DNA from: Bradyrhizobium sp. 195
Lineage (GTDB): Bacteria; Pseudomonadota; Alphaproteobacteria; Rhizobiales; Xanthobacteraceae
Length of the DNA stretch: 64,000 bases
NCBI RefSeq assembly: GCF_023101665.1
Contig: NZ_CP082161.1
Location: 3,534,001 to 3,598,000 of the forward strand
Direction of reading: 5' to 3'
In this document: positions 687 to 19,140 of the stretch, one piece after another
Numbering within the stretch: the first letter of the stretch is position 1
Layout: every line of letters begins with the position of its first letter
The notes under the pieces: generated by a model
Databases searched by the model: none
What the model saw: the letters and a program-made list of their open reading frames with translations, nothing else
What the model was told of the DNA's origin: nothing
Made by a program: the position numbers and the translations under genes

Positions 687-1037
687 CTAATGTAGCCTGG
701 AGACTGCTCTCGTCGGCTTATCGCCTTCGAGCAAAGAGACCGCTCAAAAGTTGGAAATCAACATGCAATGCCGCAGACGGTTGCAGCGCTTGGAGCCAGG
801 CCCAAATCCGCCAGCAAATTAAATGCTGTTATTGAATTGGTTCAACATTAAATGTCAAAATAAAGCGACGAGCTCGCGATCGAACTGGCGCACGAGAGAT
901 TGAAGGCACCTGCCAGCCGATGCAAATCGTGATCGCCACCGGCGAAACTCAAATCGCGCGATTAACTTATTTAATTTGAGAAGGCGATGATTTTGGTCTA
1001 CCTTCAAGATCGGGCTGGATTTTAGCAGGACGAGCCG
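687..1037. other. Intergenic region, 351 bp
   Basis: No convincing coding sequence was found on either strand. The right end is AT-rich and holds the element AACTCAAATCGCGCG at 946-960. A similar string, AACTCAAATTTGCGCG, occurs at 3644-3659 ahead of the paralogous small gene at 3826, so this may be a shared promoter element; that is inference from two copies only. Confidence 0.35.
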
Positions 1038-1259
1038 ATGACCCAACTCGACGCGGAAGGCGATGATCGTCGTGAGTTCTTGAAGACCTGCGGAAAATTC
1101 GCCGCGGTTACTCCTCCGACAGTGACGCTGTTGCTCTCCACTTCCCTGACCTCGGCCGCGATAGCCAGTTCAGGGGGGCGCATTGTGCGTGGCAACAACG
1201 GCTTCGGCAATGGCGGCGGTGACGGCACCCCCAACGGGAAAGAGGACGACAATAGGTAA
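1038..1259 (+). CDS. Small protein with RR-x-FLK leader and Gly/Asn tail
   Basis: This 73-residue protein starts with a charged stretch and the twin-arginine-like motif DDRREFLKTCG. A hydrophobic segment (AAVTPPTVTLLLSTSL) follows, then a short Gly/Asn/Asp-rich tail. The first 47 residues closely match the protein at 3826, while the tails differ entirely. The pattern suggests an exported or membrane-anchored peptide with a conserved leader and a variable mature part. A purine-rich AGGAC lies upstream of the ATG. The function is not recognised. The neighbouring genes are an H-NS-family protein on the other strand and a LuxR-type regulator. Confidence 0.7.
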   Translation: MTQLDAEGDDRREFLKTCGKFAAVTPPTVTLLLSTSLTSAAIASSGGRIVRGNNGFGNGGGDGTPNGKEDDNR

Positions 1260-1296
1260 ATCGGCGGCCCTTGGGCCGCCGCGGTGTGGCTGGGAA

Positions 1297-1641
1297 TCAG
1301 CCGGTCCGGCGGCGTCTTTGTGCGGACGAGCGGTTGATCAGGAGATCGTTCAGCTTCTTGCCGGCGCGCAGCTGCGCTTTCAGCCAGCGGGGCTGCTTGC
1401 CGCGGCCGGACCAGGTTTCGGAGGGGTTCTTCGGGTTCTGGTATTTCGGTAGCACCGGGGGGTACGGACGGCGCTGACGTTCCCCGGTCGGGGACGACAC
1501 GGCGGTCCCCTCAATCTTGCGCAGCCGCTCTTCGAGCTTGGCCTTTTCCGCGGTCATCCTGCGACTGAGAACGGTCGTGACCTCATCGTAAAGCCGCCAC
1601 AGCTCGGCTGTGGTCAAGTTGGCCCAGTCACCCTTCTCCAT
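1297..1641 (-). CDS. H-NS family nucleoid-associated protein (HvrA-like)
   Basis: This 114-residue protein has an N-terminal helical oligomerisation part (residues 1-45, rich in Glu, Arg and Leu). The C-terminal half carries the H-NS DNA-binding signature: KYQNPKNPSETWSGRG followed by PRWLKAQL, matching the family core Y-x-N-P-x-x-P-x-x-x-W-x-G-R-G. Proteins of this type bind AT-rich DNA and silence or modulate acquired genes. The gene lies in an AT-rich accessory stretch, a plausible target. The C-terminus ends in a basic RRRRTG tail. Confidence 0.9.
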   Translation of the reverse strand: MEKGDWANLTTAELWRLYDEVTTVLSRRMTAEKAKLEERLRKIEGTAVSSPTGERQRRPYPPVLPKYQNPKNPSETWSGRGKQPRWLKAQLRAGKKLNDLLINRSSAQRRRRTG

Positions 1642-1760
1642 GGAAGCCGTCCCCAGCTACTTCCGAACCGAAACTGGAGGGGGATTATCAGGTCATACCA
1701 GGGTTGGGCAAGCGCGATCCGAGCGCGTGGCGGCGCTTGTGTGCAGTGCAGTACTTGGTG

Positions 1761-1946
1761 CTAGCGGTTGAGGCTGTGTCCCCGACCGCGCGGTCGCTTC
1801 CCAAGCGCCCTCCGTCCGGGGGGGCGTCGCTTGGGCTCGAGCAATCGCTTCTCTGCTTTCAACACGCGAATACGTAAGTTCTGCAATTCGGTGAATTGAA
1901 CGATGAGGGCCTTATGTGTTTGATGCAAAATCGCCGAAGAATACAT
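1761..1946 (-). CDS. Possible small basic protein
   Basis: This 61-codon frame encodes a helical N-terminal half (HKALIVQFTELQNLRIRVLK) followed by a strongly basic Arg/Pro/Lys tail. AGGTGATC precedes the ATG. The sequence looks protein-like, but it is short and no family is recognised. A chance open frame remains possible. Confidence 0.3.
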   Translation of the reverse strand: MYSSAILHQTHKALIVQFTELQNLRIRVLKAEKRLLEPKRRPPGRRALGKRPRGRGHSLNR

Positions 1947-1977
1947 GTGATCACCTACTCATTGCCAACGACGACCC

Positions 1978-2106
1978 GTGCCGATCATTGAAGTTGCTGA
2001 ATTGGCGAATCAGCTTCAAGCGCGGTACTGGGACTTCATCGGTTACTACACGGGCTACGATAAACAGCAGCCTTGTTCGGTCCTTGACTACCTGCCGTTG
2101 CTTTGA
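1978..2106 (+). CDS. Possible 42-residue ORF or gene remnant
   Basis: A GTG-initiated frame of 42 codons encodes a compact aromatic-rich sequence containing ELANQLQARYWDFIGYYTGY and ending DYLPLL. The residue composition is unlike random translation, but no clear ribosome binding site precedes it, and a TGA lies 30 bases upstream in frame. It could be a small gene or the 3' end of a lost longer one. Confidence 0.25.
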   Translation: MPIIEVAELANQLQARYWDFIGYYTGYDKQQPCSVLDYLPLL

Positions 2107-2392
2107 TGAATAGTAATACTTTTTCTCACCTCTCTTCCCGAAGCGAGGGCTTCACGAACAGCCTCGCATCAGTGAAACTTCGTCGAATGTTAGATTTGAA
2201 TCGCGAATGTCCCTATATATCGTTCGTAATATCCGGCACTAGCTAAGGTAGTTGGATGTTGACCATAATAATAACCCCCCGATCAGTACGACCGATGACA
2301 TTCTTGGAGTGAATTTTCAGATCGGGGCTATCAAAAATTGTAGACGAAACTTCAATATCCTCGTGGAATTTGCGGTTTCTTATTTTGCGTTG

Positions 2393-2414
2393 AGCACCGC
2401 ATTCTTACGGTGCT
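2393..2414. repeat. Inverted repeat, 7-bp arms
   Basis: AGCACCG (2393-2399) and CGGTGCT (2408-2414) are perfect inverted arms around an 8-base loop, about 180 bp ahead of the response-regulator gene. No T-tract follows, so an operator or RNA hairpin is as likely as a terminator. Confidence 0.3.
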
Positions 2415-2593
2415 GCAAGCATTCTCTGGGCGAGCTACGGTAGCGCGGCCATCGAGCGTTGCCGCCAGGCGGTGTCTCAGACCTAAGACGCGTCGCTAGT
2501 GAGGGGCCTGACTGGTTATAAATTCGCGCGTCTCAAAAGGGGGGTGGGATTAAACGGCCGCAAGGGGGGTTGTTAGCAACAGGCAGGGGAAGC

Positions 2594-3280
2594 ATGCGCC
2601 GTACCAGAATTGTCATCGCTGATCGACATCCGATCGTCTTGCAAGGGATTAGGAGCGTTCTTGCGGCGCAGCGTGATTTTGCGGTCGTTGCTTCTTGCAG
2701 CGATGGCGCTAGCTGTATCGAGGCAATTCGATTTCTTGCGCCGGACGTCGCGCTTGTCGATGCTGCACTACCCGACTTCAGTCGACAGCGGATCCTCGCT
2801 CCTACAAAGGCCGTCGGCCGCCGTGCTCCGATAATCTTTTTCACCGGTATGGCGGGCGACAGTGAGTTACAAAGGCTGGCCTCGGACGGCGCCTGCATCG
2901 TCCTCTCGAAAGATTCGGGTGTGGAGATGCTGGTCGCAACTCTGCGGAAAGCTGCCCGGCGCCAAGCAGCCGCCTCGAGCACCGGTCACGTCAGCGAGAA
3001 GCCCCACGCCGGTGAGAAGCCCCTGACACAGCTAACTGACCGGGAGCGGCAGATCATGCGGCTGGTATCGGAGGGGCTATCGAACAAGGAGATTGGGCGT
3101 CGGTTGAATCTTGCCGACGGTACGATCAAGGTCCATCTTCATCATATCTTTCAGAAGCTGGATATCAGCAATCGTACGGTTCTTGCGGCATTGGCGATTT
3201 CGCGAAACGAGCTGCATTCAGCGCCAGGTGAGTTGGATTCCCTTGATCTTTTGCGTCAGGATCCGGCCAGCGCTGATTGA
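2594..3280 (+). CDS. LuxR/NarL-type response regulator
   Basis: This 228-residue regulator has a receiver domain (residues 1-115) and a LuxR-type helix-turn-helix (about 147-205; LTDRERQIMRLVSEGLSNKE, then GTIKVHLHHIFQKL). The phospho-acceptor is Asp56 in VALVDAALPD, and the conserved Thr/Lys positions (FFTG, LSKD) are present. The acidic pocket has one Asp (ADRHP) instead of the usual pair. The ATG at 2594 follows AGGGGAAGC and is preferred over an upstream TTG at 2570. It closely resembles the N-terminus of the giant protein at 6223, so the two probably arose by duplication. No sensor kinase is adjacent. Confidence 0.9.
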   Translation: MRRTRIVIADRHPIVLQGIRSVLAAQRDFAVVASCSDGASCIEAIRFLAPDVALVDAALPDFSRQRILAPTKAVGRRAPIIFFTGMAGDSELQRLASDGACIVLSKDSGVEMLVATLRKAARRQAAASSTGHVSEKPHAGEKPLTQLTDRERQIMRLVSEGLSNKEIGRRLNLADGTIKVHLHHIFQKLDISNRTVLAALAISRNELHSAPGELDSLDLLRQDPASAD

Positions 3281-3321
3281 TAGGCTGGGCCTGGCGTTTT
3301 CGGGAGTCTGCGAAAGGCGGT

Positions 3322-3573
3322 CTATCGCGCTGCGAGATGCTCAATCATGTTGCGGCAGGCCCCTTCGGCCTCGGCCAACGTTCGAAAGGGCGAGCCGCCA
3401 ATCTTGATTGCGGCCTGGTTGTTGTGGAGCGGACGCCAACTTGCCAGGTAGCCGGAGCGTCCGTGAAAACCCGGACCTCCCGGGCTTCCGAAACTGATCA
3501 CGAACGAGAAGCCGTGGCTGTTCGCACTCCAGATCTCCATGTCCCGGACGGACCGATAGAATTCCAGTGGCAT
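3322..3573 (-). CDS. Small conserved-looking hypothetical protein
   Basis: This 83-residue protein is rich in aromatic and Gly residues (MEIWSANSHGFSFVISF; GRSGYLASWRPL) and ends in a helical segment, PFRTLAEAEGACRNMIEHLA. Codon use and amino-acid order look genuine. No family name is recognised. It has no signal peptide and no Cys-rich motif, and appears to be a small soluble protein. It lies convergent to the response-regulator gene ending at 3280. An alternative ATG lies 11 codons inside. Confidence 0.6.
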   Translation of the reverse strand: MPLEFYRSVRDMEIWSANSHGFSFVISFGSPGGPGFHGRSGYLASWRPLHNNQAAIKIGGSPFRTLAEAEGACRNMIEHLAAR

Positions 3574-3605
3574 CGCAAGGGTCCATTGTAGCCGAGCCCG
3601 CGCCC

Positions 3606-3624
3606 GGTTAATTGAAAATTAACC
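3606..3624. promoter_or_regulatory. 19-bp palindrome upstream of small secreted-protein gene
   Basis: GGTTAATTGAAAATTAACC is a perfect 8-bp inverted repeat around GAA. It lies about 200 bp ahead of the gene at 3826 and just upstream of the gene on the other strand that starts at 3573. It is AT-rich, perfectly symmetric and sits between two divergent genes, which suits an operator for an unknown regulator. Confidence 0.4.
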
Positions 3625-3825
3625 TAATTAAATGCCATAACGCAACTCAAATTTGCGCGTCGGCAGAGTGCCCTGGCAAAAACGGGGGAAGAGACCGGAA
3701 ATTGCCGGCTTTCTGTCCGAGGCACGCACGTTCAGCAACCTCTCACAAGGCCAAGAAAATTAGTGGTTGAGAATTGATTTAATATATAATAATGTAAATA
3801 ATATTTTAAATCGAGGAGGCGCGTC

Positions 3826-4317
3826 GTGACCCGAGACGGCAACGAAGACGACGACCGGCGGGCGTTTTTGAAAACCTGCGGAAGATTTGCAGCCGTGACG
3901 CCCCCTGTCATGACGCTGCTTCTGTCCACCTCCCTGAGTTCAAAAGCCATTGCACGTTCGGGCGGCTTGCAGGGGGCGAGGCAAAGCGACAGCGGCCAGT
4001 CGTTCTTCGACAATAATCGGTCATCCGCGGCAGGGGGTTCCAGTGGCGGATCATCAGGGGGCGGGGGAGCACCTGGCGGTCGCCCTGCTGGATCTTCTCG
4101 TGCCGGAGGGACATCCGGCGGCGGATCTGGCGGTACCGGCGGGTCCGGTGCTGGCGGAGGCAGTGCCAAAGGGCCCTTCGCAACCGGTGGCAGCTCTGGA
4201 ATTCCAAGCGCAAATGGTGGGGTCGATTGCGCAGACGAAGAGAACGAGGAAAAGCGCAAGGCCGATTGCCCCGGAGCTAATACGCGGATCTCCAGCGCAA
4301 CCGAATCCAGCCGGTAA
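3826..4317 (+). CDS. RR-x-FLK leader protein with long Gly/Ser tail
   Basis: This 163-residue protein shares its first 47 residues with the protein at 1038 (DDRRAFLKTCGRFAAVTPP, then TLLLSTSL and an AIA-x-SGG end). It then has about 80 residues of Gly/Ser repeats. It ends with a charged segment carrying two Cys about 14 residues apart (CADEENEEKRKADC). The leader resembles a Tat-type export signal. The GTG start at 3826 is chosen because GAGGAGG sits 6 bases upstream and the leader aligns from there. An AT-rich promoter-like stretch lies at 3778-3812. The function is unknown. Confidence 0.75.
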   Translation: MTRDGNEDDDRRAFLKTCGRFAAVTPPVMTLLLSTSLSSKAIARSGGLQGARQSDSGQSFFDNNRSSAAGGSSGGSSGGGGAPGGRPAGSSRAGGTSGGGSGGTGGSGAGGGSAKGPFATGGSSGIPSANGGVDCADEENEEKRKADCPGANTRISSATESSR

Positions 4318-4571
4318 GAACTTTTCGGCCCATGAAGGAGCCCTATGGGCTGCTAGGCGGCCAAAGCCAGGTTGGGCCTTGCGCTCCGACAGGCCAAACG
4401 CGAGGCCGAAAGCACATCTGGCCAGCCGAGCTGCCTTGATTCACCGCCAGCCATCGCTGCAAAGTTCTTGTGCTCGCTCAGGATGGGGCGATTTGTAACG
4501 ACCGAGTCTCGGGCACTTTTTTGCTGAATCGCGAGGGTGCATGTGCGAGTGGTTCGCGAAGCGAATCGGTT

Positions 4572-5363
4572 CTACGAGCCTGTCCCGGCTATTCGGCTAC
4601 CGGGCGAGCGGGAAGGGGGCCGCGCTGGAGCCCCATGGCCGAGCCCGACCGCGCCGCGCGAGACTATCCGATCGATTCTGCGGCTCATGACCTTGTAGCA
4701 CTCGCATGCCACGGCTTCGAGCCGCGGCCGATCAATCTCGAGCTGGCCGCGCCGATTGGATTTCAACGCCCTTGACGCGCGCATTGTGCACACGACATGC
4801 GTGACAGTGGTGCGGCGGACGCCCAGCAACTCCGACAATGTTTCTTGCGTCAGCGGGAGCAGATCACCTCCATCCGCACGATCGTGGATGTGAAGAAGGC
4901 AGCGCGCCAGGCGGGCTTCGACGGAATGCAGTGCATTGCAGGCCGCCGTGTACTGGAGTTGCGTCAACAACGACATCGTGAAGACCTGCACCATGGATGC
5001 GATTGCGGGGCTGCGATGTTGTGCTGTCAGGAATTGCGCAGGCGAGATCTGCAACGCGGCCCCGGATATGCGGACGACCGCCGTCGCGGGCGCGGCGGAT
5101 GCACCAAACGCTGACGTCAAACCCACAGCGCCCTCGTGCCCGATTATCGCCGTAGCAACTGTCTGCCCGTTCGGCAGCCCTGTGATCGCCGCGATCGCGC
5201 CGCTGAGGGGGAAGAGAAGATGTTCAATTTGTTCGCCCGATCGGACGAGCACGGAATCGCGTTCGATCACGACTTTCCGCAGATGAGGCGCAAGCAAAGC
5301 AAAATCCGCTGGTGGCAACCCTGCTAACAAACGATTACCAACTCTGGTCGCGTGGTCCATCAT
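4572..5363 (-). CDS. Crp/Fnr family regulator
   Basis: This 263-residue protein has a cyclic-nucleotide-binding-like beta barrel (about residues 15-130) and a C-terminal winged helix (LPLTQETLSELLGVRRTTVT). The recognition helix lacks the E-x-x-S-R signature of FNR/FixK proteins, so it should not read the TTGAT boxes found further right. No Cys cluster for an Fe-S centre is present. The chosen ATG at 5363 follows GGGAG; an upstream ATG at 5402 is possible and a longer open frame reaches 5603. The last 30 residues are Pro/Gly/Arg-rich and unlike the family's usual end, perhaps a readthrough tail. Confidence 0.85.
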   Translation of the reverse strand: MMDHATRVGNRLLAGLPPADFALLAPHLRKVVIERDSVLVRSGEQIEHLLFPLSGAIAAITGLPNGQTVATAIIGHEGAVGLTSAFGASAAPATAVVRISGAALQISPAQFLTAQHRSPAIASMVQVFTMSLLTQLQYTAACNALHSVEARLARCLLHIHDRADGGDLLPLTQETLSELLGVRRTTVTHVVCTMRASRALKSNRRGQLEIDRPRLEAVACECYKVMSRRIDRIVSRGAVGLGHGAPARPPSRSPGSRIAGTGS

Positions 5364-5739
5364 GGGATTGGCTCCCGACGGATGTTCGGCACTAGAACTC
5401 ATGCCGATGTGTCGAGCTGCTCTGCAGAGTGCCAGCTCAACAGCAAGCCAACCGACCACCAAAGATATGGTTCCCATGGCCAATGGCGAGCATACGCGGC
5501 CCGACGATCGCATGCCGCAGCGGAGGCAATGGCGATAGGTGCTCTCGTCATCTGGCCCCGCTAATATCCTGGTTGAAGACGAGTTCAGGTGGCATCGCTT
5601 CAAGTTGAAGCCGAGACTTGAGCGCCTTCACACGCTCGCGCCGCATGGGCCGTGCAGTCGCTGGGAGGCCTCAAGTTGGCATTCTCGCTGGAGGCGTATC
5701 GTCCTTCGACATGCTTTCTCTAACGATCGCGCCGCAGGT

Positions 5740-6057
5740 CTAGTGTGAGGGACTGCAGTCTAGCGCCTTGATCTGCCCGGTAACGTCAAACGAGAAAAGC
5801 GCACTCATGACACCACTATTGATGACGTACGAGATAATGGTCCCCTCGTGCAATGGATTGAGATCGCTCAATGTGCCCGCCGGATATTCTCGGAGGCGAT
5901 CAATCCAATAGGCACGAAGTGCCTCGTGGCCGGTAATGGTTTTGACGCCCCCGCAGCCGCAGTGCACCACGGCATCTTCGGCATGCATTTCTAAGATCGC
6001 CTCGATGTCGCCCGCGCGGTAAGCATCGAGCCAGTCAATGGCAATGGCAATGGCCAT
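5740..6057 (-). CDS. NTF2-like / SnoaL-like protein
   Basis: This 105-residue protein has the cone-shaped NTF2 fold signature: WLDAYRAGDIEAILEMHAED at the N-terminus, then a central ITGHEALRAYW segment and alternating beta strands. Relatives include ketosteroid isomerases and small polyketide cyclases, but many are of unknown role. No catalytic assignment is possible from sequence. The gene is transcribed away from the giant regulator gene at 6223 across a short AT-rich gap. Confidence 0.8.
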   Translation of the reverse strand: MAIAIAIDWLDAYRAGDIEAILEMHAEDAVVHCGCGGVKTITGHEALRAYWIDRLREYPAGTLSDLNPLHEGTIISYVINSGVMSALFSFDVTGQIKALDCSPSH

Positions 6058-6222
6058 GGGTCAAATGACATATTTCTCGCCTACATCCCTGTAAGCTTGT
6101 GATTTTAGGTCGTTTTTGGCCCGCTAAGCCTCTTTCCGTACGCAATTAATTGTATTTTAATAATCCCGCTTGGCCTCGGCCATATGCCGAAGTACATAGA
6201 TGGTCGGGCCGAGGCAGAGACC

Positions 6223-9200
6223 ATGTTAGACGTGTCTGTGAAGCAGAGACGGATCCGGCTTCTGATCGTAGATCGACAACCGATCGTTCTACAGGGGCTG
6301 AAGTCGGTGCTCGGGGCAGAGCAGGACTTCGACGTTGTCGCATCATGCAGCGATGGAACAAGCTGCCTCGAAGCAATTCGGAATTTGGCACCCGATGTCA
6401 CGCTTGTTGCTGACAACCTGCCAGATCTGACGGTACCCGAGATCCTCGCGATTGCGAAAGCTGAGAATCTCTCCACGCGCTTGGTGTTGTTTACCGAGTC
6501 CGAAGCAGATCACGATCTAACCGCAGCTATTGCTGCTGGCGCCTCCAGCGTAATCTCGAAGCATGCTTCCTCCGACACTATGCTGCGATTACTGCGCCTG
6601 ATGACAAAGCGCAGCGTGTCGCCCGAGCAATCCGATCTGTTGCCAGCCGACGAGGGAGCTGACGGCGGCGGCAAAGTTGAAACGATGCTGGAGCTGTTGA
6701 CGCACCGGGAGCGTCAAATTGTACGACTGGTCTCAGAAGGAATGTCGAACAAGGAGATCGCGCGCCAGCTAAGCGTTTCCCCAGGGACAGTCAAAGTACA
6801 CCTGTACAACATATTTCAGAAGCTCGAAATTACCAACAGAACTGTGCTCGCTACCCTCGCGTTGTTGCAGCGCCCGTCCGGCTTCGGCCATCTTGCGCTG
6901 GCGTTCCTGGCGTTCGCAATTGCGGACGAACTCAAGGCGTCGGAAGCGAACGACGTGGATCCGGATGACGACAGCGTCGGTCGCGCGCGAGAGCATGCCG
7001 AATATGAGCCCTGGAAAAGAGCTATTCTCCGATACCTCATGGTCGAGGAATCCGGCGAGACGCCCCCGCTCACCCAGAGGGACTTGTTTGCCAAGGCGAG
7101 CCTAGTCACGAACCCGGCGGCGGCAGTAGAAGCGCTGCGGCCGGCTGAGCAATCCGTAGGCTCGAAAGCGTGGAAAGACTACGGTCCAGTTGGATCGAGC
7201 ACGCCCAATCTTCCTACGCCATTACTGCGGGGAGCCAGCGACCCACAGATCTGTGGCGACCCGACCGCGGAACATCAATTCCCGCGGCTTAATTCCACTT
7301 CGACGTTGATTCACGGAGGGTATGGCACCTTCGCCACTTTGACCGGTGCGTTGATCTACGCACTGAATGATCCCCATCTTGCCGTGCAATCGCATGACCC
7401 GGTCAAAGCGCCGATCGACAGTTTCGTGGTGGTCACCGCCGAGAATGCGACCACAAAACTCGCCGGGATCACCGATGCTGATACCAATGAGGTAAACGGC
7501 TCGCCCCCGGCTTTCCCTTTGCACGATTTGCGGCTGCCTGCCGCGCTTGGGACCACCGGCAACGAGCGCGTTGCTGGAGAAGGCGTTTCGAGCCAAATGA
7601 GTCATGGCGCTGCGGATGACAACCTGCAAGGACCTTTTGGCTCACGGGACACTGGTCACGAGGCCGGTATTGGCGGAGATGGCCACGATCAACAGATGGG
7701 CGGCAACGTTGGCGAAAATGTTGTTTCTGGCTCCGCGATCGACTCTAATTCGAGCTCTTCCCACTCTGGCTTCGATTTCGCATCTGGATCGAGCAGGATC
7801 AATCTTGCGGCTTTCGGAGCGCTTGCCTGGCTTCATATGACAGCAGCAAGCAAGTCTGTACCGCCGCATACCCTCGCTTGGATCTACAATCCTGCAACCA
7901 ACGAAACGATCGTCTACGTGAACCCGACCGATCGGAGTCTTGATGTCGGGGACAGGGCCCTGCTCGAAATCCATCTGCAAGGGATTGTCTCCATTGCGGA
8001 GTCGGATTTCGTCGGCCAGCCGGAAGGCGCGGCTGTCGCGATCACCTTGGAGCAGCTCGAAGAAGCGCTGATTTCGGCGACCGCAAGCGATGAGACTGTT
8101 CTGAGTACGGACAGTGCCCATACAGCTGTCGGGACGAGCGAGAGCACACTCGGGATCGCTGGAGTTTGGAACATTCTGGCCGACGACGGCTTGGGGTTCG
8201 AATTCGGGCAGGCTCGGACCGGCTTAGGGGGAGCGACAAGGTTCAGAACCCTCAGCAGCGATTCGGCGGGTACAACGGATGAGAGCGCTGATGGGTCCGG
8301 CGGGTCGCCTCATGTTTCACCGATCGTGCTTGTTCATAGCGCGACGGTAGTTGAAAATCTCACATCGAAGAATGAGCCCATCAATGAGGGGGGTGGCTCT
8401 AGCCTCTCAGCGGGCGGTAACTCACAGCACGCTCCTGAGGCAGAGTCTGCAGCGGAGTTGACTGAAGCTGGCGTCATACGTGGGAATGGCGTCGGCAATG
8501 ATAATGAGCATCATTCCCCCGCTTCGGACGCTTCGCGAGGGTCAGCGAAGACAGCAGAAGCCGATGCCGTGGAACACGGCAATTCAGGGCACTCAGCCTC
8601 GCCAAAAGCCGACCCTGGTGAGCCAGGCCTCGGTAGCCCGGGCCGCGGTAACTCACAGCACGCTTCGGAGCCAGGGTCTGCAAAGGCAGCAGCGGAGTTG
8701 ACTGAAGCTGACGTCATACGGGGGAATGGCGTCGGCAATGATAATGAGCATCATTCCCCTGCTTCGGACGCTCCGCGAGGGTCAGCAAAGACAGCAGAAG
8801 CAGATGCCGTGGAACACGGCAATTCAGGGCACTCAGCCTCGCCAAAACCACCGGAAGCAGCCGACCCTGGTGAGCCAGGCCTCGGTAGCCCGGGCCGCGG
8901 TAACTCACAGCACGCTTCGGAGCCAAGGTCTGCAAAGGCAGCAGCGGAGTTGACTGAAGTTGGCGTCATACGTGGGAATGGCGTCGGCAATGAAAACGAG
9001 CATCATTCCCCTGCTTCGGACGCTCCGCGAGGGTCAGCGAAGACAGCAGAAGCAGATGCCGTGGAACACGGCAATTCAGGGCACTCAGCCTCACCAAAAC
9101 CACCGGAAGCAGCCGACCCTGGTGAGCCAGGCCTCGGTAGGCCGGGCCGCGGTAACTCACAGCACGCTTCGGAGCCAGGGTCTGCAAAGGCAGCAGCGGA

Positions 9201-10218
9201 GTTGACTGAAGCTGGCGTCATACGGGGGAATGGCGTCGGCCATGACGACGAGCATCATTCCCCCGCTTCGGACGCTTCGCGAGGGTCAGCGAAGACGGCG
9301 GAAGCAGATGCCGTGGAGCACGGCAATTCGGGGCACTCAGCCTCGCCAAAACCACCGGAAGCAGCCGACGCTGGTGAGCCAGGCCTCGGTAGCCCTGGCC
9401 GCGGTAACTCACAGCACGCTTCAGAGCCAGGGTCTGCAAAGGCAGCAGCGGAGTTGACTGAAGCTGGCGTCATACGTGGGAATGGCGTCGGCAATGACAA
9501 CGAGCATCATTCCCCCGCTTCGGACGCTTCGCGAGGGTCAGCGAAGACGGCAGAAGCAGATGCCGTGGAACACGGCAATTCGGGGCACTCAGCCTCTGCA
9601 GACGCACCGGACGCAGCTGATCTCGGTGAGCCGAGCATCGCAGCGGCTGGCAGCACGGGCCGTGGTGGCTCACAGCACGTTTCAGAGCCGGGGCCTCCAA
9701 ACGCGGCCACAGAGTTGACTGAAGCTGGCTTCGCACCGGGAAATGGCGCCAAGCATCACGCTCCGGTTTTGGATGTTGCGGGAGCGTCAGCCGAGGAAGA
9801 GTCGACCGTCGTGGAGCAGGGCAACTCCGGGCACGATTCACGCCACTCTGAAGACGCACCGGAAGCAGCCGAGATGGTCGAACCGAGCGTCGCAAATGGC
9901 AGTAACGCCGGAAACTGGCCGCAGGCCGGGCAATCTGCTGCAACCGCCTTGGGACACGTACAGCCGGCTAAAGTTGCCTCCGAAATTGGCGGCGCAGAAC
10001 TCGCGTTTCGCTTCGATAGCTATGCAACTCCTCCCACATTCGTCGCGGTAGTTGAGGTTAATAACCCGCTCGATCCGCACGTTTCCCTCGGTCAGGAAAA
10101 GGATCTTCACGTCATCGGCAAATTGATCCCTAATGCACTGGACGAACACGCGGTCGCCCCCGTTCATAACCTTCCGCATCATGCCATTTTACCCGCGCCT
10201 CATGACGTGCTGATTTGA
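6223..10218 (+). CDS. LuxR-type response regulator fused to adhesin-like repeat tail
   Basis: This is one open frame of 1,331 residues. Residues 1-120 are a receiver domain and about 158-215 a LuxR-type helix-turn-helix (LTHRERQIVRLVSEGMSNKE). The usual phospho-acceptor is Ala63 (VTLVADNLPD), unlike the paralogue at 2594, so phosphorylation there is unlikely. Two short hydrophobic stretches follow (GFGHLALAFLAFAIADEL near 217; a second near 365). Around 550-600 lies a segment, LAWIYNPATNETIVYVNPTD, of a type I associate with large secreted proteins of rhizobia. Residues about 744-1185 are five near-identical repeats of about 84 residues plus a degenerate one. ATG 6223 follows GAGGCAGAG; ATG 6184 is also possible. 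DNA-binding and secreted-type parts in one chain are hard to reconcile, and the function is unknown. Confidence 0.8.
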   Translation: MLDVSVKQRRIRLLIVDRQPIVLQGLKSVLGAEQDFDVVASCSDGTSCLEAIRNLAPDVTLVADNLPDLTVPEILAIAKAENLSTRLVLFTESEADHDLTAAIAAGASSVISKHASSDTMLRLLRLMTKRSVSPEQSDLLPADEGADGGGKVETMLELLTHRERQIVRLVSEGMSNKEIARQLSVSPGTVKVHLYNIFQKLEITNRTVLATLALLQRPSGFGHLALAFLAFAIADELKASEANDVDPDDDSVGRAREHAEYEPWKRAILRYLMVEESGETPPLTQRDLFAKASLVTNPAAAVEALRPAEQSVGSKAWKDYGPVGSSTPNLPTPLLRGASDPQICGDPTAEHQFPRLNSTSTLIHGGYGTFATLTGALIYALNDPHLAVQSHDPVKAPIDSFVVVTAENATTKLAGITDADTNEVNGSPPAFPLHDLRLPAALGTTGNERVAGEGVSSQMSHGAADDNLQGPFGSRDTGHEAGIGGDGHDQQMGGNVGENVVSGSAIDSNSSSSHSGFDFASGSSRINLAAFGALAWLHMTAASKSVPPHTLAWIYNPATNETIVYVNPTDRSLDVGDRALLEIHLQGIVSIAESDFVGQPEGAAVAITLEQLEEALISATASDETVLSTDSAHTAVGTSESTLGIAGVWNILADDGLGFEFGQARTGLGGATRFRTLSSDSAGTTDESADGSGGSPHVSPIVLVHSATVVENLTSKNEPINEGGGSSLSAGGNSQHAPEAESAAELTEAGVIRGNGVGNDNEHHSPASDASRGSAKTAEADAVEHGNSGHSASPKADPGEPGLGSPGRGNSQHASEPGSAKAAAELTEADVIRGNGVGNDNEHHSPASDAPRGSAKTAEADAVEHGNSGHSASPKPPEAADPGEPGLGSPGRGNSQHASEPRSAKAAAELTEVGVIRGNGVGNENEHHSPASDAPRGSAKTAEADAVEHGNSGHSASPKPPEAADPGEPGLGRPGRGNSQHASEPGSAKAAAELTEAGVIRGNGVGHDDEHHSPASDASRGSAKTAEADAVEHGNSGHSASPKPPEAADAGEPGLGSPGRGNSQHASEPGSAKAAAELTEAGVIRGNGVGNDNEHHSPASDASRGSAKTAEADAVEHGNSGHSASADAPDAADLGEPSIAAAGSTGRGGSQHVSEPGPPNAATELTEAGFAPGNGAKHHAPVLDVAGASAEEESTVVEQGNSGHDSRHSEDAPEAAEMVEPSVANGSNAGNWPQAGQSAATALGHVQPAKVASEIGGAELAFRFDSYATPPTFVAVVEVNNPLDPHVSLGQEKDLHVIGKLIPNALDEHAVAPVHNLPHHAILPAPHDVLI
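8457..9713 (+). repeat. Tandem coding repeats, ~252-bp unit
   Basis: The string GTTGACTGAAG recurs at 8457, 8697, 8949, 9201, 9453 and 9714, giving units of 240, 252, 252, 252 and 261 bp. The first unit lacks the 12 bases coding PPEA. Units are nearly identical at DNA level, which implies recent amplification or gene conversion. Each unit encodes Gly/Asn/His/Ser-rich sequence including RGNGVGNDNEHHSPASDA and AVEHGNSGHSAS. Confidence 0.95.
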
Positions 10219-10964
10219 AGTGTTCCATCGTTGGCTAAAGACGAGCAGGAGCGCGACCGCGAGGGCCCGATGTTGAGCAGGCTGCCGCCCGCGTCCATGG
10301 GCTTCCTGACCAGCGATCAGCCTTATTCTGGTTGAACGGCCCGTTCGCTTAGGCGATGGACAGGCGCGCGTGCAGGTGTCGTCCATGATCATGAAGGTCG
10401 CCGGCTTCTTCGCCCACACTCGCCGATGTTCGGCCATTCAGTGTGCCTGTTGAGTTCGTCGACGCGTTCGCGAAGGCGAGCGCGAGCATATGGCGATCGT
10501 TGGGATGGCCGACAAATGGTGAACACGACGGCGCGATGCTGAGCTCGCCTATGGCGGTCTGAAGATCGAGCCGGCAGGCTGGTTGCCCTAGGAATTGCGA
10601 TGACGAATGACAACCCACCCCTTACGATCTGCTTGGGCTGCTGGGCTCATCAATTCGCCGAATGAGCCGTTGTGGAACGAGCGCCGGTCCATGGGGACGT
10701 CTTTCAGTTGGAAGGCCAGGTGACCATTCTAAGCTTCGGTCGAGAACCCAGCTTACATTGCTGATCTCCCTCGTTTGTTTCTGCATCTTCATGGCCTGAA
10801 ATACAGGGCGACGCCATTTGGGTACGGATCGACCACATGTGGGTCGTAGAATGGGATGATATCGCGAACAAAAAAGATGTACGCGCGATTGGGCTCGTCG
10901 ATGCCGCTAGACCGCAGAGGGACGATTCGTATGGTGAGCGAAAGGATAGCTCTACGGCTCCGCA
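10219..10964. other. Intergenic region with decayed sequence
   Basis: About 750 bp without an intact gene. A lipA-like remnant on the minus strand (about 10330-10480) is described separately. The rest (10480-10964) has only short frames with no recognisable similarity. Confidence 0.5.
10330..10480 (-). pseudogene. lipA: Remnant of lipoyl synthase (lipA)
   Basis: Read on the minus strand, one frame gives EWPNIGECG. After a one-base shift, a second frame gives KKPATFMIMDDTCTRACPS. Together these match the highly conserved lipoyl synthase stretch C-PNIGEC-W-x-KK-x-ATFMIMGDTCTRAC, which precedes the radical-SAM cysteines. The reading frame is broken, the C-x-x-C context after TRAC is lost, and no similarity was recognised further on either side. 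It is therefore a short decayed copy; the working lipA must lie elsewhere. Confidence 0.7.
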
Positions 10965-11489
10965 TCAGCTGAGCTTCAACACCAGGTGAATCGTGTGCGG
11001 ATCAAGCTTTGCTGAGGGAGCGAAGCCCAACTTGTCGAACACGCTGCGCATCCTGGCGTTTTCCGGAAGAACCTCCGCCGTCAGCTCGGCCAGGTCGGCG
11101 CTGCGAGCGATTGCAACGAGGGTACGGGCCAGCATCGAACCGATTCCGCGTCCCTGCCAGGCGTCCACCACCATGAAGGCCATCTCGGCACGCCCGGGTT
11201 CGAAGACGATGTAGCGGCCGCCCCCGACGATGGCATTTTGGCCGGCTTCCGTCGCAAGCGCCACCAGCGCGACGTGATTCCTGAAATCGACGTCCATGAA
11301 GAAGGCGCGTTCGCGATCGGAGAAGTGGTGCTTCGTCGCGAAGAACCGGCGCTGCAATGATCGGGCGCCGGTCTGTTCCACTGCGGCGAGCATGCCGGAC
11401 TCATCCTCAGGGCGAAGCGCCCGGATTTCGACCTGACTTCCATCTGGCAAGTGCTCGCGTGCGCTGTAGTTGGCGGCGTCCGACATCAC
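10965..11489 (-). CDS. GNAT family N-acetyltransferase
   Basis: This 174-residue protein has the GNAT fold. The acetyl-CoA-binding motif A appears as VVDAWQGRGIGSMLARTL (about residues 108-125; the Q-x-x-G-x-G/A core is QGRGIG), followed by the usual C-terminal strand ending in MRSVFDKLGF. The N-terminus (VEIRALRPEDESGM) is typical of the type fused to acyl-CoA synthetases or acting as protein acetyltransferases. It is divergent from the AI-2E transporter gene and shares the FNR/FixK-type box at 11564-11577, which implies induction at low oxygen. The substrate is unknown. Confidence 0.88.
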   Translation of the reverse strand: MMSDAANYSAREHLPDGSQVEIRALRPEDESGMLAAVEQTGARSLQRRFFATKHHFSDRERAFFMDVDFRNHVALVALATEAGQNAIVGGGRYIVFEPGRAEMAFMVVDAWQGRGIGSMLARTLVAIARSADLAELTAEVLPENARMRSVFDKLGFAPSAKLDPHTIHLVLKLS

Positions 11490-11563
11490 GGCTCCCGGTA
11501 AGGCAAACAGGCTCCGATAGGGCCCGGCGTCGGCTGATCAGGTCCCCGCGGCCCGTGGAGTGT

Positions 11564-11577
11564 TTGATCCAGATCAA
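11564..11577. promoter_or_regulatory. FNR/FixK-type box, perfect palindrome
   Basis: TTGATCCAGATCAA matches the TTGAT-N4-ATCAA consensus exactly. Its centre is about 82 bp from the GNAT start at 11489 and about 100 bp from the transporter start at 11671. A class II start site about 41 bp from the centre would leave leaders of about 40-60 bases on either side. Confidence 0.85.
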
Positions 11578-11670
11578 GATTGCATCGCCAAGCTGCGAGC
11601 TACGCTTGCTGATGGTCTGGACCTGGACGCCGCCTTGAAGACACTTCGCCAGCTTCTCACCGGAGAGGAC

Positions 11671-12780
11671 GTGATCCAGCTCGTGATCCGGCTCGGATTG
11701 CTCGCTCTGCTGATCGTTTGGACGTTCTATCTGGTCCGTCCCTTCGTCACGATCCTGGTCTGGGCTCTCGTGCTCGCGGTCGCGTTCAATCCCGTCTTTG
11801 TTTTGCTCGCAAAGATCCTGGGCGGCCGGGCGAAGCTCGCCGCGGTCATTCTCACGGCCATCAATCTCGCGATCGTCATCGGGCCGGCGGCCTGGCTCGG
11901 TCTCGGCGCGGTCGACGGGATCAGAGATTTCGCCGGCGAGCTGGCGGCGGGCGATCTGGCCATTCCGTCGCCGCCCGCGACGATCAAGACTTGGCCGCTG
12001 ATTGGAACGCAGCTCTACGATTTCTGGGATCAGGCCTCGACCAATCTCCGTTCGGTTCTGCAGCGGATTGTGCCGTATCTGAAGCCCTTTGCGGGCACGC
12101 TGCTTGGCGTTGCGGGCGATGCCGGCGTGGGCACGATCAAGTTCCTGCTATCGGTCGCGGTCGCCGGCGTCCTCTTTCCCTATGGACCGCAGCTCGTGAC
12201 GGCGGGCAGGGAGTTCCTGTCACGGATCGTGCCCGAACAAAGCGAGCACTTCCTGGACCTGGCGGGCGCAACTATTCGCGCGGTATCCCAGGGCGTGATC
12301 GGGATCGCAGTCGTCCAGGCGCTGCTGGCCGGCATCGGATTCAAGCTGGCCGGCATCCCGATTGCCGGGCTGCTTGCCTTCCTCGTGCTGCTGCTCTCCG
12401 TCGTGCAGATCGGCGCAGCCATCATCATGCTGCCGGTGATCATCTGGATCTGGACCGACAAAGACCTCACCACGGCGTTGCTGCTGACGCTTTTTCTCGG
12501 AATCGTCAGCATTCTCGACAACATATTGAAACCTCTCGTGATGGGGCGCGGCCTGACGACGCCGACGCTCGTGATCCTCATCGGCGTGATCGGGGGCACG
12601 CTGGGGCACGGAATCGTCGGTCTCTTCATCGGGCCGATCATCCTGTCGGTGGCCTGGGAGCTCATGATGGCCTGGATCAGGACCGACCGCGCCGTTCCGC
12701 AGCCGCAAGCATCGTCGACCGTTGACCTAAATCAACATCGGCCAACTCTGAGTGCCTTGGATGAAACCGCGCGACGATGA
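11671..12780 (+). CDS. AI-2E family transporter (PerM-like)
   Basis: This is a polytopic inner-membrane protein of about 369 residues with the AI-2E/PerM layout: two early membrane helices, a central soluble segment, then a C-terminal block of helices ending in GLFIGPIILSVAWELMMAW. Family members export small molecules or ions; the substrate here is unknown. The open frame begins at GTG 11560, but a perfect FNR/FixK box lies at 11564-11577, inside that extension. GTG 11671, preceded by GGAGAGG, is therefore the more likely start. The downstream DUF3141 gene has its own box near the 3' end of this gene. Confidence 0.88.
   Translation: MIQLVIRLGLLALLIVWTFYLVRPFVTILVWALVLAVAFNPVFVLLAKILGGRAKLAAVILTAINLAIVIGPAAWLGLGAVDGIRDFAGELAAGDLAIPSPPATIKTWPLIGTQLYDFWDQASTNLRSVLQRIVPYLKPFAGTLLGVAGDAGVGTIKFLLSVAVAGVLFPYGPQLVTAGREFLSRIVPEQSEHFLDLAGATIRAVSQGVIGIAVVQALLAGIGFKLAGIPIAGLLAFLVLLLSVVQIGAAIIMLPVIIWIWTDKDLTTALLLTLFLGIVSILDNILKPLVMGRGLTTPTLVILIGVIGGTLGHGIVGLFIGPIILSVAWELMMAWIRTDRAVPQPQASSTVDLNQHRPTLSALDETARR
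12722..12735. promoter_or_regulatory. FNR/FixK-type box
   Basis: TTGACCTAAATCAA differs from the consensus by one base. It lies inside the end of the AI-2E gene, centred about 62 bp before the ATG at 12790, which fits a class II promoter for the DUF3141-pta-ackA-fabI operon. Confidence 0.75.
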
Positions 12781-12789
12781 GGTCGGAAC

Positions 12790-15009
12790 ATGTCGATGGA
12801 AAAACCTACAGTGCCAAGCGGCCCGCTGTCGGGGCTTGTCGCCTCGGCCGTCGAATACATGGTCGATGCCGGCCAGCGGAGCGTCCTGTTCCTCGACATC
12901 ATGCGCCGGCGCGGCGACCAGTACCGGGAGCATGTCGCGCAGACCGCGCCGCATGTCCTGCAATATGCCGCCGAATTGATCATCGACGGCCGCAAGCTGG
13001 ACGAGCCCGTCAACTACGCGCTGGTTCGTATCATTCCGCCGAAAGGCGTCGAAATTGATCCCGAGCGGCGGCCGTTCGTCGTTGTCGATCCGCGCGCCGG
13101 CCACGGGCCGGGCATCGGCGGTTTCAAGGCCGACAGCGAGATCGGCGTTGCGATGAAGGCCGGGCATCCGTGCTATTTCGTCGGCTTCCTGCCGGAACCG
13201 ATGCCGGGACAAACCATCGAGCGCATCGCACGGGCCGAAGCGTTGTTCGTCGAGAAGGTCATCAGCCTCCATCCCAAGGCTGACGGCAAGCCATGCGTGA
13301 TCGGAAACTGCCAGGCCGGCTGGGCGGTCATGATTCTGGCGTCGCTACGGCCGGAATTGTTCGGACCGCTCATTATTGCCGGGGCGCCGCTCGCCTATTG
13401 GGCCGGCGTGCACGGCAAGTATCCGATGCGCTATTCCGGCGGTCTGCTAGGCGGGAGCTGGCTGACGGCGATGACTTCCGATCTTGGCGCCGGGAAGTTC
13501 GACGGCGCCTGGCTGGTACAGAATTTCGAGAACCAGAATCCGTCGAATACGCTCTGGACCAAGCAGTACAACGTCTATTCCAAGGTCGACACCGAGGCTG
13601 ACCGCTATCTCGAATTCGAACGCTGGTGGGGTGGGCACGTCAACCTCAACGCCGAGGAAATACAGTTCATCGTCGATGAGCTTTTCATCGGTAACAATCT
13701 CGCCGCGGGCAAGATCGAGATGTCCGACGGCCAGAAGGTCGACTTGCGCAATATCCGATCGCCCATTCTCGTGTTCTGCTCCGAAGGCGACAATGTCACC
13801 CCGCCACAGCAGGCGCTGAACTGGATCCTCGATTGCTATGCCGATGTCGACGAGATCCGGGCCTATGGGCAGACCATCGTCTACACCGTTCACCAGAGCA
13901 TCGGCCATCTCGGCATCTTCGTCTCTGGCGGGGTTGCAAAGAAGGAGCACGCCGAGTTCTCCAGCAATATCGACCTGATCGACGTGCTGCCGCCGGGACT
14001 CTACGAAGCGACGTTCGAGGCCAAGGGCGAGGAAACCACGAACTCCGATCTCGTCGTCGGCCAGTGGGTGATGCGCTGCGAGGCGCGGACGCTCGACGAT
14101 ATCCGCGCCATGGGTGGCAACTCCCCCGAGGACGAGCGGCGCTTCGCCGCCGCCAAGCGCGTCTCGGAGCTCAACCTTGCCGCCTACCAGAAGTTCGTGC
14201 GGCCCTGGATCAAGAACATGGTGACGCCGCAGATGGCGGACATGATGCGCAACTTGCATCCACTTCGGCTGCAGTATGAGGCCGCCAGTAGCAAAAATCC
14301 ATGGATGACGGCGGTGAAGTCGGCCGCCGAGGAGATCGAGGACAACCGCAAGCCGGCTTCCGCGGATAATCCTTTCGTCGCCTTCCAAGAGCAGATGTCC
14401 AAGCAGATTGTGCACGCGCTGGATAGCTGGCGCGATGCACAGGAAGCGCTGAGCGAAACGATCTTCCTCAACCTCTATGGCTCTCCAGCCTTGCAGGCGG
14501 CCGTCGGAATCGATCCGAAGTCCGAACCATCCCGGCGGCGCGAGATGACGCCCGAGCATCGCGCGATGCTGGAGACGCGGATTGCGCAGCTGAAATCGAT
14601 GATCGGCGAAGGCGGTCTGCGCGAGGCAGCCATCCGCAGCCTGCTCTATATCGGCTCAGCGCGGGGAATGGTCGATGAGCGCAGCATCGAGGCCTTGCGC
14701 CAGATCCGCCGGGACTACAGTGGACCGCGGATGACGTTGCCTGAGTTCAAAATGCTGGTTCGAGAGCAGTTCTTCATGCTGCTGATCGACCGGGAAGGCG
14801 CCGTTGAAGCCATCCGGAAGCTGTTGCCCGAGGATATGGCCCAGCGGCGTGCCGCCTTCACGGCGATCAGCGAGGTGCTATCCGCGAGCGGCGACATCAC
14901 GGGCGAGCGCGCAAGAAGGTTGCAGCGTGTCGCCGCCTTGTTTGGCGTCGATGCCGGGGAGGGCGTGTCGAACGTCGCCCCTTTCGATCCAAAAGCGAAG
15001 GCGTCGTAA
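12790..15009 (+). CDS. DUF3141 protein, PhaC-like alpha/beta hydrolase
   Basis: This 739-residue protein matches the DUF3141 family, related to polyhydroxyalkanoate synthases. Residues about 85-390 form an alpha/beta-hydrolase core. The nucleophile elbow appears to be IGNCQAGW, with Cys in place of Ser as in PHA synthases; VFCSEGDNVTPP and SIGHLGIFVSGG carry the likely acid and His. The C-terminal 350 residues are helical. The gene heads an operon with pta, ackA and fabI, a grouping I recognise from other proteobacteria, and a FixK-type box lies ahead of it. A role in handling hydroxyacyl-CoA or polymer is inferred. Confidence 0.85.
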   Translation: MSMEKPTVPSGPLSGLVASAVEYMVDAGQRSVLFLDIMRRRGDQYREHVAQTAPHVLQYAAELIIDGRKLDEPVNYALVRIIPPKGVEIDPERRPFVVVDPRAGHGPGIGGFKADSEIGVAMKAGHPCYFVGFLPEPMPGQTIERIARAEALFVEKVISLHPKADGKPCVIGNCQAGWAVMILASLRPELFGPLIIAGAPLAYWAGVHGKYPMRYSGGLLGGSWLTAMTSDLGAGKFDGAWLVQNFENQNPSNTLWTKQYNVYSKVDTEADRYLEFERWWGGHVNLNAEEIQFIVDELFIGNNLAAGKIEMSDGQKVDLRNIRSPILVFCSEGDNVTPPQQALNWILDCYADVDEIRAYGQTIVYTVHQSIGHLGIFVSGGVAKKEHAEFSSNIDLIDVLPPGLYEATFEAKGEETTNSDLVVGQWVMRCEARTLDDIRAMGGNSPEDERRFAAAKRVSELNLAAYQKFVRPWIKNMVTPQMADMMRNLHPLRLQYEAASSKNPWMTAVKSAAEEIEDNRKPASADNPFVAFQEQMSKQIVHALDSWRDAQEALSETIFLNLYGSPALQAAVGIDPKSEPSRRREMTPEHRAMLETRIAQLKSMIGEGGLREAAIRSLLYIGSARGMVDERSIEALRQIRRDYSGPRMTLPEFKMLVREQFFMLLIDREGAVEAIRKLLPEDMAQRRAAFTAISEVLSASGDITGERARRLQRVAALFGVDAGEGVSNVAPFDPKAKAS

Positions 15010-15038
15010 GGCTGTCTGAAAGGACCGGGAGCCAGATC

Positions 15039-16001
15039 ATGTCAGCCGAAACAAGGCAAACACAGTCTCCCAGCAAGTACGATCGACTAATCGTCGCAGC
15101 AAAGGCCGTTCCGCCGCTTCCGACAATCGTGGTGCATCCCTGCGACGAAACCTCGCTGCGCGGCGCTGTCGACAGCGCGCAAGCAGGCATCATTCGCCCG
15201 ATGCTGGTTGGGCCTGAAAACAGGATCAGGGATATCGCGGGAAAGCACGGCCTCGACATCGCCGGCTTCGAGATGGTCAACGCTGCTCACAGCGATGAAG
15301 CGGCTGCCAAAAGCGTCGAGCTTATTCACGCGGCTAAGGGCGAAATGCTGATGAAGGGCAGCCTGCATACCGACGAGCTGATGCGGGCCGTGACCGCGAA
15401 AGTGGGCGGCCTGCGCACCGATCGTCGCATCAGCCATGTATTCGTGATGGACGTGCCGGCCTATGCCGAAACCCTGTTTGTGACGGATGCGGCCATCAAC
15501 ATTTTTCCGGATCTCGATGCCAAGCGAGACATCATCCAGAACGCGATCGATCTCTACGTTCAGGCCGGCTTCGGCGCATCGCCGCGGGTGGCGATCCTTT
15601 CGGCGGTCGAGACCGTGACCTCCAAAATTCCATCGACGCTTGAAGCCGCGGCGCTCTGTAAGATGGCTGATCGCGGCCAGATCACCGGCGGCGTGCTCGA
15701 CGGACCGCTGGCCTTCGACAATGCGATCGATATCGAGGCCGCGCGCATCAAGGGGATCAAATCGGAAGTGGCCGGCCGGGCGCAGATCCTTGTCGTGCCG
15801 GACCTCGAGGCCGGGAACATGCTGGCGAAGAATCTGGCCTATTTCGCCAAGGCCGATGGTGCGGGCCTCGTGCTTGGTGCCCGCGTTCCGGTCGTCCTGA
15901 CCTCGCGCGCGGACTCGCCGCGTGCGCGCATGGCATCGTGCGCGGTGGCCTCGCTTTATGCCAATGCCAGGCGCCAACGTTCGCCAACAGTCGCCGCGTG
16001 A
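15039..16001 (+). CDS. pta: Phosphate acetyl/butyryl transferase
   Basis: This 320-residue enzyme is of the short phosphate acetyl/butyryltransferase type, which swaps CoA and phosphate on acyl groups to give acyl-phosphate. Conserved blocks include RPMLVGPENRIRDIA, LMKGSLHTDELMRAV and the C-terminal LVVPDLEAGNMLAKNL. It starts 29 bases after DUF3141 and overlaps the region just before ackA, so acyl-phosphate made here can be used for ATP synthesis by AckA. Acetyl-CoA is the likely substrate because of ackA, but butyryl-CoA or other short acyl-CoAs are possible. The gene symbol is by role. Confidence 0.88.
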   Translation: MSAETRQTQSPSKYDRLIVAAKAVPPLPTIVVHPCDETSLRGAVDSAQAGIIRPMLVGPENRIRDIAGKHGLDIAGFEMVNAAHSDEAAAKSVELIHAAKGEMLMKGSLHTDELMRAVTAKVGGLRTDRRISHVFVMDVPAYAETLFVTDAAINIFPDLDAKRDIIQNAIDLYVQAGFGASPRVAILSAVETVTSKIPSTLEAAALCKMADRGQITGGVLDGPLAFDNAIDIEAARIKGIKSEVAGRAQILVVPDLEAGNMLAKNLAYFAKADGAGLVLGARVPVVLTSRADSPRARMASCAVASLYANARRQRSPTVAA

Positions 16002-16006
16002 CCGCC

Positions 16007-18006: not shown

Positions 18007-18012
18007 GCGCGT

Positions 18013-18471: not shown

Positions 18472-18484
18472 GATGCTGACCTGC

Positions 18485-19135: not shown

Positions 19136-19140
19136 GGAGA

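Follow-up and report, generated by a model that had tools for sequence, protein, structure and literature searches.

The window analysed here, a stretch of 64,000 nucleotides from Bradyrhizobium sp. 195 (contig NZ_CP082161.1, positions 3,534,001 to 3,598,000), carries a fused gene in which a DNA-binding response regulator is continued, in one frame, by a long tail resembling a secreted protein. Judging from sequence comparison, the tail descends from a VCBS-RTX surface protein of the type I secretion system (T1SS) type and the regulator replaces the FecR-like N-terminal domain of that protein; we regard this predicted architecture and ancestry as secure. The RTX and VCBS parts have decayed, while the helix-turn-helix (HTH), the receiver, a serralysin-like core and the last five codons were kept by selection. 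As an explanation we put forward, with confidence somewhat short of even, a phosphorylation-independent transcription factor that would still dock with a T1SS, whose state would control the regulator.

An earlier sequence-only reading of the window had described an uninterrupted frame starting at 6223 and had considered a sequencing frameshift. The frame stands: a single stop-free open reading frame (ORF) at 6223-10218 (+) encodes 1,331 residues. The start has to be moved, as the in-frame ATG at 6184, which gives 1,344 residues, is the more probable one; in the upstream-region alignment the bases from 6184 onward are conserved, a similar in-frame N-terminus is also present in loci L031 and L039, and the conservation immediately 5' of 6223 would be explained because coding runs from 6184. 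As to a separate internal start for the tail, a check of ATG codons showed no methionine between residues 174 and 273; no promoter-like site was found in 5600-10700. Head and tail lie in one frame in 55 distinct fused frames, counting that of the window (after removal of 7 duplicates), and this conserved single frame across relatives rules out both two genes and a frameshift artefact. An inverted repeat, TCGGC-N5-GCCGA, spans the ATG at 6176-6190; it occurs twice in the window vs 0.34 expected occurrences, and is possibly a binding site or merely coding sequence.

The tail comprises 1,115 residues after the HTH, rich in Ala, Gly, Ser and Glu. Pfam gave no significant match to it (the sole one at E ≤ 1 was a chance-level DELLA hit, 0.23), and its RTX part matched nothing in the PDB. 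Its ancestry was recognized by comparison with a 1,377-residue FecR-VCBS-RTX protein of the same genome (G000:C1:5742153-5746286, equivalent to L009:7154-11287), which contains four cadherin-like stretches of the VCBS type, RTX repeats and a serralysin C domain, its FecR match falling below the curated cut-off. The two proteins align in the same order through linker, VCBS, RTX and serralysin C (E 4e-37), with residues 220-328 corresponding to the linker after FecR (37% identity) and residues 366-627 to the last VCBS repeat, the RTX region and serralysin C (37%). A near full-length form of the chimera is found in genome G314, where the fused protein has 2,122 residues and contains a receiver, an HTH, five Cadherin_4 domains, three RTX stretches, serralysin C (M10_C), repeats and the terminal residues HDLIV. 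It gives two long alignments with the FecR-VCBS-RTX protein (59% and 64% identity), the similarity starting at GGFG right after the HTH, and in the PDB its RTX part matched serralysins (~1e-11) as well as further RTX proteins. The fused proteins of G285, G321 and G400 have a VCBS-like part, assigned by reading, together with a C-terminus of the same kind, and the relatives with PF00353 retained are L040 and L047 (9e-11 and 4e-8) as well as G314, G321 and G400. The window protein is the worn end of a series that has the near full-length G314 protein at its other end.

The surface-protein-like tail and the non-standard architecture noted in the sequence-only reading are both confirmed; the missing phospho-acceptor, the T1SS-type end and the descent from a VCBS/RTX protein go beyond that reading. 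The idea that the regulator had fused with its former target gene survives in its first half: a single tree branch (see below) and the G314 intermediate speak strongly for a fusion, and the target relationship found no support, as the 26 loci with unfused regulators contained no FecR, VCBS or tail match except L116, which itself holds a fused gene. A donor arrangement, in which a separate FecR-VCBS-RTX gene would adjoin the regulator, was not found at these loci; such matches came only from L116. At another locus (L076:7619-14828), a tandem pair of FecR-VCBS-RTX-type frames overlaps by a few bases.

In the head, Pfam identified Response_reg at residues 14-123 (E 1.1e-12) and GerE at 158-213 (E 1.5e-20), and the nearest solved structure by sequence is NarL 1a04 (E 3.2e-24). 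Pfam, the NarL alignment and the structure model agree on a receiver fold followed by a GerE HTH, the usual order of the NarL/FixJ family. An AlphaFold model of residues 1-690 (47 alignment rows, mean predicted local distance difference test score (pLDDT) of 41) was usable for the receiver and HTH and unusable for the tail (pLDDT < 50 over 217-545); its comparison with the PDB returned receivers and nothing informative for the tail. Ala63 (6409-6411) aligns with the phospho-acceptor Asp of NarL, whereas D17 and K113 are retained, and the head is a relative rather than a canonical member of the family because the phospho-acceptor Asp is gone; the residues that follow the HTH are a further departure from it. 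A PF00072 domain without this Asp is a pseudo-receiver, and its loss with retention of the first acidic residue and the Lys has been described for such domains (PMC12632262, PMC4395418). According to PMC12632262, 2.0% of sampled PF00072 domains are without the Asp, and the activating input of bacterial pseudo-receiver regulators is still a mystery. The pseudo-receivers described in the available parts of these two papers do not have a secreted-protein tail, while here the loss coincides with the fusion: Asp occupies position 63 in 46 of the 47 unfused rows but in a single one of the 56 fused rows, the others having Ala (49), Gly (2), Ser (2) or Glu (2), and the fused rows keep D17 (56/56) and K113 (53/56). 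Read from the alignment, the residue is Gly, Gly, Glu and Ser in G314, G321, G400 and the second G363 gene. The loss of the Asp therefore appears to accompany the fusion and to match the pseudo-receiver pattern, and the fused regulator is likely independent of phosphorylation. No histidine kinase partner was found among the ORFs of window positions 1-20,000 or the Pfam-scanned neighbours, the rest of the genome lying outside this search.

To define the extent of the family, a protein search retrieved 295 relatives from 7,987 scored candidates. The best 120 of these 295 all carry PF00072 and PF00196, measure 735-1,633 residues and, where the name bears an organism, belong to Bradyrhizobium; stand-alone regulators were invisible in this search because candidates were limited to 0.55-1.75 times the query length. 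Genome scans, in which stand-alone regulators were visible, gave 76 loci in one case and matches in 29 of 296 family genomes in another. Fused frames occurred in the genus Bradyrhizobium and in three contigs of metagenome-assembled genomes carrying other names (L054-L056), which may be mis-assigned, and nine genomes from three other genera showed a regulator-only match. Within the genus, 78 of 242 genomes matched at 1e-90, and 77 of these have a fused frame of at least 799 residues (as read from the rows), so homologues with the same domain order exist and the two parts are not always separate genes; the remaining genome (G431) has a 224-residue regulator frame with a stop. In G502, a second copy of the fused gene (G502:C1:3790307-3792481) contains one in-frame TAG.

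A tree of 103 receiver-HTH regions, computed without G314, G321 and G400, placed 56/56 fused rows on one side of a branch (support 100/99), and an enlarged tree including these three and the second G363 gene, from which the long-branch row L040_un5368 was excluded, did so for 60/60 (100/99); all 200 bootstrap trees agree in either case. The unfused G228 regulator is nearest to the fused rows in both trees (100/99 in the enlarged one), G314, G321, G285 and G400 fall outside the group of the other 56 fused rows (83/89), and the placement of G220, on a long branch, is unsure. This topology fits a head-tail fusion that would have arisen once, the tree being compatible with a single event without disproving a second. 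The regulator of L066, a contig labelled Acidobacteria, sits among the Bradyrhizobium-family rows in both trees and is perhaps mis-binned or transferred. No description of a regulator fused to an adhesin tail was found in the literature searched, which mostly did not cover subscription papers.

The ratio of nonsynonymous to synonymous substitution rates (dN/dS), pooled over 848 pairs that are not independent, came to 0.11 for the HTH and to 0.24 each for the receiver and the serralysin-like core, against 0.47-0.71 for the two linkers, the VCBS and RTX remnants and the post-core part (0.48-0.71 when restricted to the tail). Of the tail parts measured, the core is thus the most constrained apart from the terminal residues. 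The last five codons have a dN/dS of 0.13 vs 1.32 in the preceding five (598 pairs). Among the naturally stopped frames, 45/46 end in [H/N][D/E/H][L/W/V/F]L[I/T/V], HDVLI in the window protein; in the exception, L053, unread bases interrupt the frame, and HDLLI stands at the end of the piece that follows. Acidic and hydrophobic residues at the extreme C-terminus, which mark T1SS substrates, are therefore present in the window protein. A four-residue C-terminal motif was reportedly described by Ghigo and Wandersman in 1994. In T1SS proteases of the AprA type, the chain closes with an Asp and three hydrophobic residues (PMC2642768). Outside the family, ends with an acidic and three hydrophobic residues are rare; they occurred in 43 of 1,007 crudely called genes from 71 stretches: 37 fused frames, the L053 piece, the FecR-VCBS-RTX protein of the same genome, three further RTX-type frames of this genome (one of them so classed only because it resembles its neighbour) and a single unrelated gene. 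Six of the eight readable ends of RTX-type proteins in this genome are motif-like in a wide sense (DFLL, HDLIV, HDILVV, TDFLI, TDFII, HEYLV).

From the observed architecture, ancestry and selection we infer docking with a T1SS and regulation by it. Export of T1SS substrates begins at the C-terminus, and if an N-terminal passenger folds fast the process stalls, leaving the head in the cytosol when the C-terminus is already outside (PMC4648471); in LapA-type adhesins, a stable N-terminal domain keeps the protein in the exporter (PMC6890996). With a receiver-HTH head where the FecR-like domain used to be, the protein could therefore carry a natural plug, and the regulator could be held or freed by the exporter. 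The genome has three PrtD-type transporters above the cut-off. In the proposed mechanism, the serralysin-like core and the extreme C-terminus would engage a type I exporter, C-terminus first, and the folded head would be retained on the cytosolic side, so that the exporter, rather than a histidine kinase, would set the location of the regulator and its access to DNA; the regulator would be free when exporters are busy or absent and otherwise held at the envelope. Early-branching lineages, which retain VCBS and RTX parts, could also display the tail on the outside, whereas in the lineage of the window the adhesive part has decayed, leaving mainly the head and the targeting parts constrained. 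As the adhesive and calcium-binding parts decayed and the head and targeting-like parts were kept, an exporter-held regulator fits better than an adhesin. We put the chance that the tail docks with a T1SS in the species of the window at about even, and offer exporter-coupled regulation as a testable proposal; that exporter occupancy, or outside contacts of the tail in early-branching species, would have replaced phosphorylation as the input of a transcription factor bearing a T1SS signal is a bolder idea, which we hold to be doubtful. Nothing contrary to the findings and readings given here was met in the available parts of PMC8277102, PMC10574481, PMC3430570 and PMC6515984.

Several results weigh against the exporter-held regulator. 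The window tail has no intact RTX repeat (GGxGxDxUx, PF00353) and no Pfam or PDB match, and PF00353 was detected in 3 of 47 scanned members and in none of the other 44. The pairs behind the dN/dS values are pooled and non-independent, the C-terminal 115 residues as a whole have a dN/dS of 0.60 and the last 25 alignment columns one of 0.58, so that only the very end is conserved. Two of the eight RTX-type ends in this genome are off-motif (AGTLV, GFLLS), one lipase is told in PMC2642768 to dispense with its extreme C-terminal motif, and the motif could serve some other partner. One fused member (L047) retains Asp63. T1SS genes do not adjoin the fused gene, and no PrtD or HlyD was found at fused loci among the 114 loci searched (flanks of at most 10 kb, often shorter); T1SS genes as conserved neighbours were accordingly rejected. 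The T1SS cluster found upstream of the gene, described below, is peculiar to this genome.

The main rival is a plain cytosolic reading, in which secretion would have been lost and a mostly disordered tail would tune DNA binding, oligomerisation or stability of an atypical regulator. The decay of the RTX and VCBS parts, a tail modelled without structure (pLDDT < 50 over 217-545) and the constraint on receiver and HTH agree with it, but taken alone it leaves unexplained both the contrast between 0.13 and 1.32 at the last codons and the constrained core (0.24), and we consider it possible, if unlikely. Export of the whole chimera by a T1SS, which would deplete the regulator from the cell or let it act outside, could account for the retained T1SS-type C-terminus and for the RTX parts that persist in early-branching lineages and in some others. 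However, the receiver-HTH head would be expected to fold fast, and folded passengers stall T1SS (PMC4648471), while the PF00353 match is missing in 44/47 scanned members; we judge this reading improbable.

The sequence-only reading had also pointed to hydrophobic stretches and to a membrane-tethered regulator. A hydrophobic segment is indeed present after the HTH, modelled as a helix at 221-242 with low confidence, and in 19/55 fused members the 19-residue Kyte-Doolittle mean rises above 1.6 (the median being 1.57), which would suit an anchored or proteolytically released regulator of the ToxR/CadC type. In the window protein, however, the segment is weak, the best mean being 1.33 (starting at residue 219), and it is shared with FecR-VCBS-RTX proteins (1.05-1.49 in the four frames where it was locatable) and with four early-branching fused proteins (0.92-1.45); the helix was therefore inherited from secreted proteins. 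A tether was dropped as the main explanation, being borderline and inherited, and we regard it as quite improbable. Weakest of all, a selectively unimportant fusion drifting toward loss of the tail would match the relaxed dN/dS of 0.48-0.71 in linker, VCBS, RTX remnants and post-core part, the length spread of 735-1,633 residues among the best 120 of 295 homologues and the stop in the second G502 copy, but open frames in 77/242 genomes and the C-terminal end conserved in 45/46 frames make it very improbable.

The exporter-held regulator would thus borrow from several known systems. With RTX and VCBS substrates of T1SS the family has in common the VCBS, RTX and serralysin C order and the uncleaved C-terminal end in G314 (PMC3034196), and the extreme C-terminal motif throughout; it differs in the DNA-binding head in place of a FecR-like domain and, in the window protein, in the vanished RTX repeats. 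The likeness to LapA-type adhesins, a stable N-terminal domain holding a T1SS substrate in the exporter, is a functional analogy drawn without a homology comparison, and LapA is anchored at the outer-membrane component through its retention domain, whereas here the head would be a cytosolic DNA-binding protein. FlgM is an exported anti-sigma factor; control of genes coupled to an export machine would be common to both, but here the machine would be a T1SS and the regulator a DNA-binding protein, where FlgM is an anti-sigma factor that leaves through the flagellar exporter. We know of no earlier regulator wired to a T1SS. Pseudo-receiver regulators are common, and in this family the loss of the switch is paired with the gain of a secreted-protein tail whose export-type end is under strong selection. 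If the tail docks with a T1SS, genes would be controlled through a type I exporter, a novel kind of secretion-coupled regulation, and a single protein would link the state of the cell surface or of secretion to DNA; relatives graded from the near full-length G314 protein to the decayed window protein make the replacement of phosphorylation testable, and the soil bacteria concerned are harmless.

The coordinates of the gene and its parts are collected in Table 1. The 84-residue repeats of the sequence-only reading were recovered by Tandem Repeats Finder (TRF) as one array with 91% matches, and the fusion junction lies at about 6868-6879.

Table 1. Features of the fused gene and the related regulator in the window (window positions).
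Feature	Position	Strand	Basis
Whole fused gene	6184..10218	+	ATG 6184 probable start (MPKYIDGRAEAETMLD...); ATG 6223 start in the sequence-only reading
Receiver, residues 12-124, pseudo-receiver with Ala63	6256..6594	+	Pfam, NarL alignment, (beta-alpha)5 model, dN/dS 0.24
LuxR/GerE helix-turn-helix, residues 157-213	6691..6861	+	Pfam; dN/dS 0.11
Putative post-FecR linker, residues 217-335, with hydrophobic helix; opens the secreted-protein part	6871..7227	+	220-328 37% identical to FecR-VCBS-RTX protein of the same genome; G314 much closer
Single VCBS/cadherin-like repeat remnant, residues 360-425	7300..7497	+	Aligned to L009:7154-11287 repeats; itself unmatched in Pfam
Decayed RTX stretch, residues 440-510	7540..7752	+	Aligned to RTX region of the same protein; no PF00353 match
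Serralysin-C-like core, residues 517-597	7771..8013	+	Alignment to the same protein; dN/dS 0.24; PF08548 in 7 of 47 scanned members, absent in window protein
5.1 tandem repeats of 252 bp (84 residues), rich in Ala, Gly, Ser, Glu, Pro, His	8449..9729	+	TRF
C-terminal 115 residues, F-x-F motif 10006-10014, terminal HDVLI 10201-10215	9871..10215	+	T1SS-type extreme C-terminus
Unfused NarL-type regulator, 50% identical to fused head, phospho-Asp retained	2570-3280	+	

About 12 kb upstream of the fused gene lies a T1SS cluster (L156:3843-11286, G000:C1:3521842-3529285) that encodes a 943-residue Ig-like/W_rich_C protein, a PrtD-type ATP-binding cassette (ABC) transporter, HlyD and a Peptidase_C93 (LapG family); since no T1SS genes were found at the fused loci searched, this cluster is just a lead. 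At nine loci with an unfused regulator (L058, L059, L061, L062, L063, L065, L072, L085 and L120), a T1SS-type ABC transporter and HlyD are located ~2-9 kb from it, the transporter being 32-33% identical to the PrtD of this genome (882 residues in L059 and L061), and most of these loci hold a second, divergent regulator. Some unfused loci lie amid what, by reading, appear to be polysaccharide genes, which together hints that these regulators have long been linked to the cell surface; the nearest unfused regulator, G228, has different neighbours. Many fused loci have only a divergent SnoaL-like gene in common, and L040, L046, L047 and L049 are without even that. The block upstream of the fused gene, shared by the window and seven loci (L010, L012, L013, L022, L025, L039 and L051), consists of two proteins resembling twin-arginine translocation (Tat) signal proteins, a putative H-NS-like gene (labelled by reading), the unfused regulator and a CRP-like gene. 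In the window, the two short Tat-like proteins (1038-1259 and 3826-4317, +) share a Tat-like N-terminus (DRR-FLKTCG-FAAVTPP) and a Gly/Ser-rich remainder, and one of them precedes each of the two related regulators.

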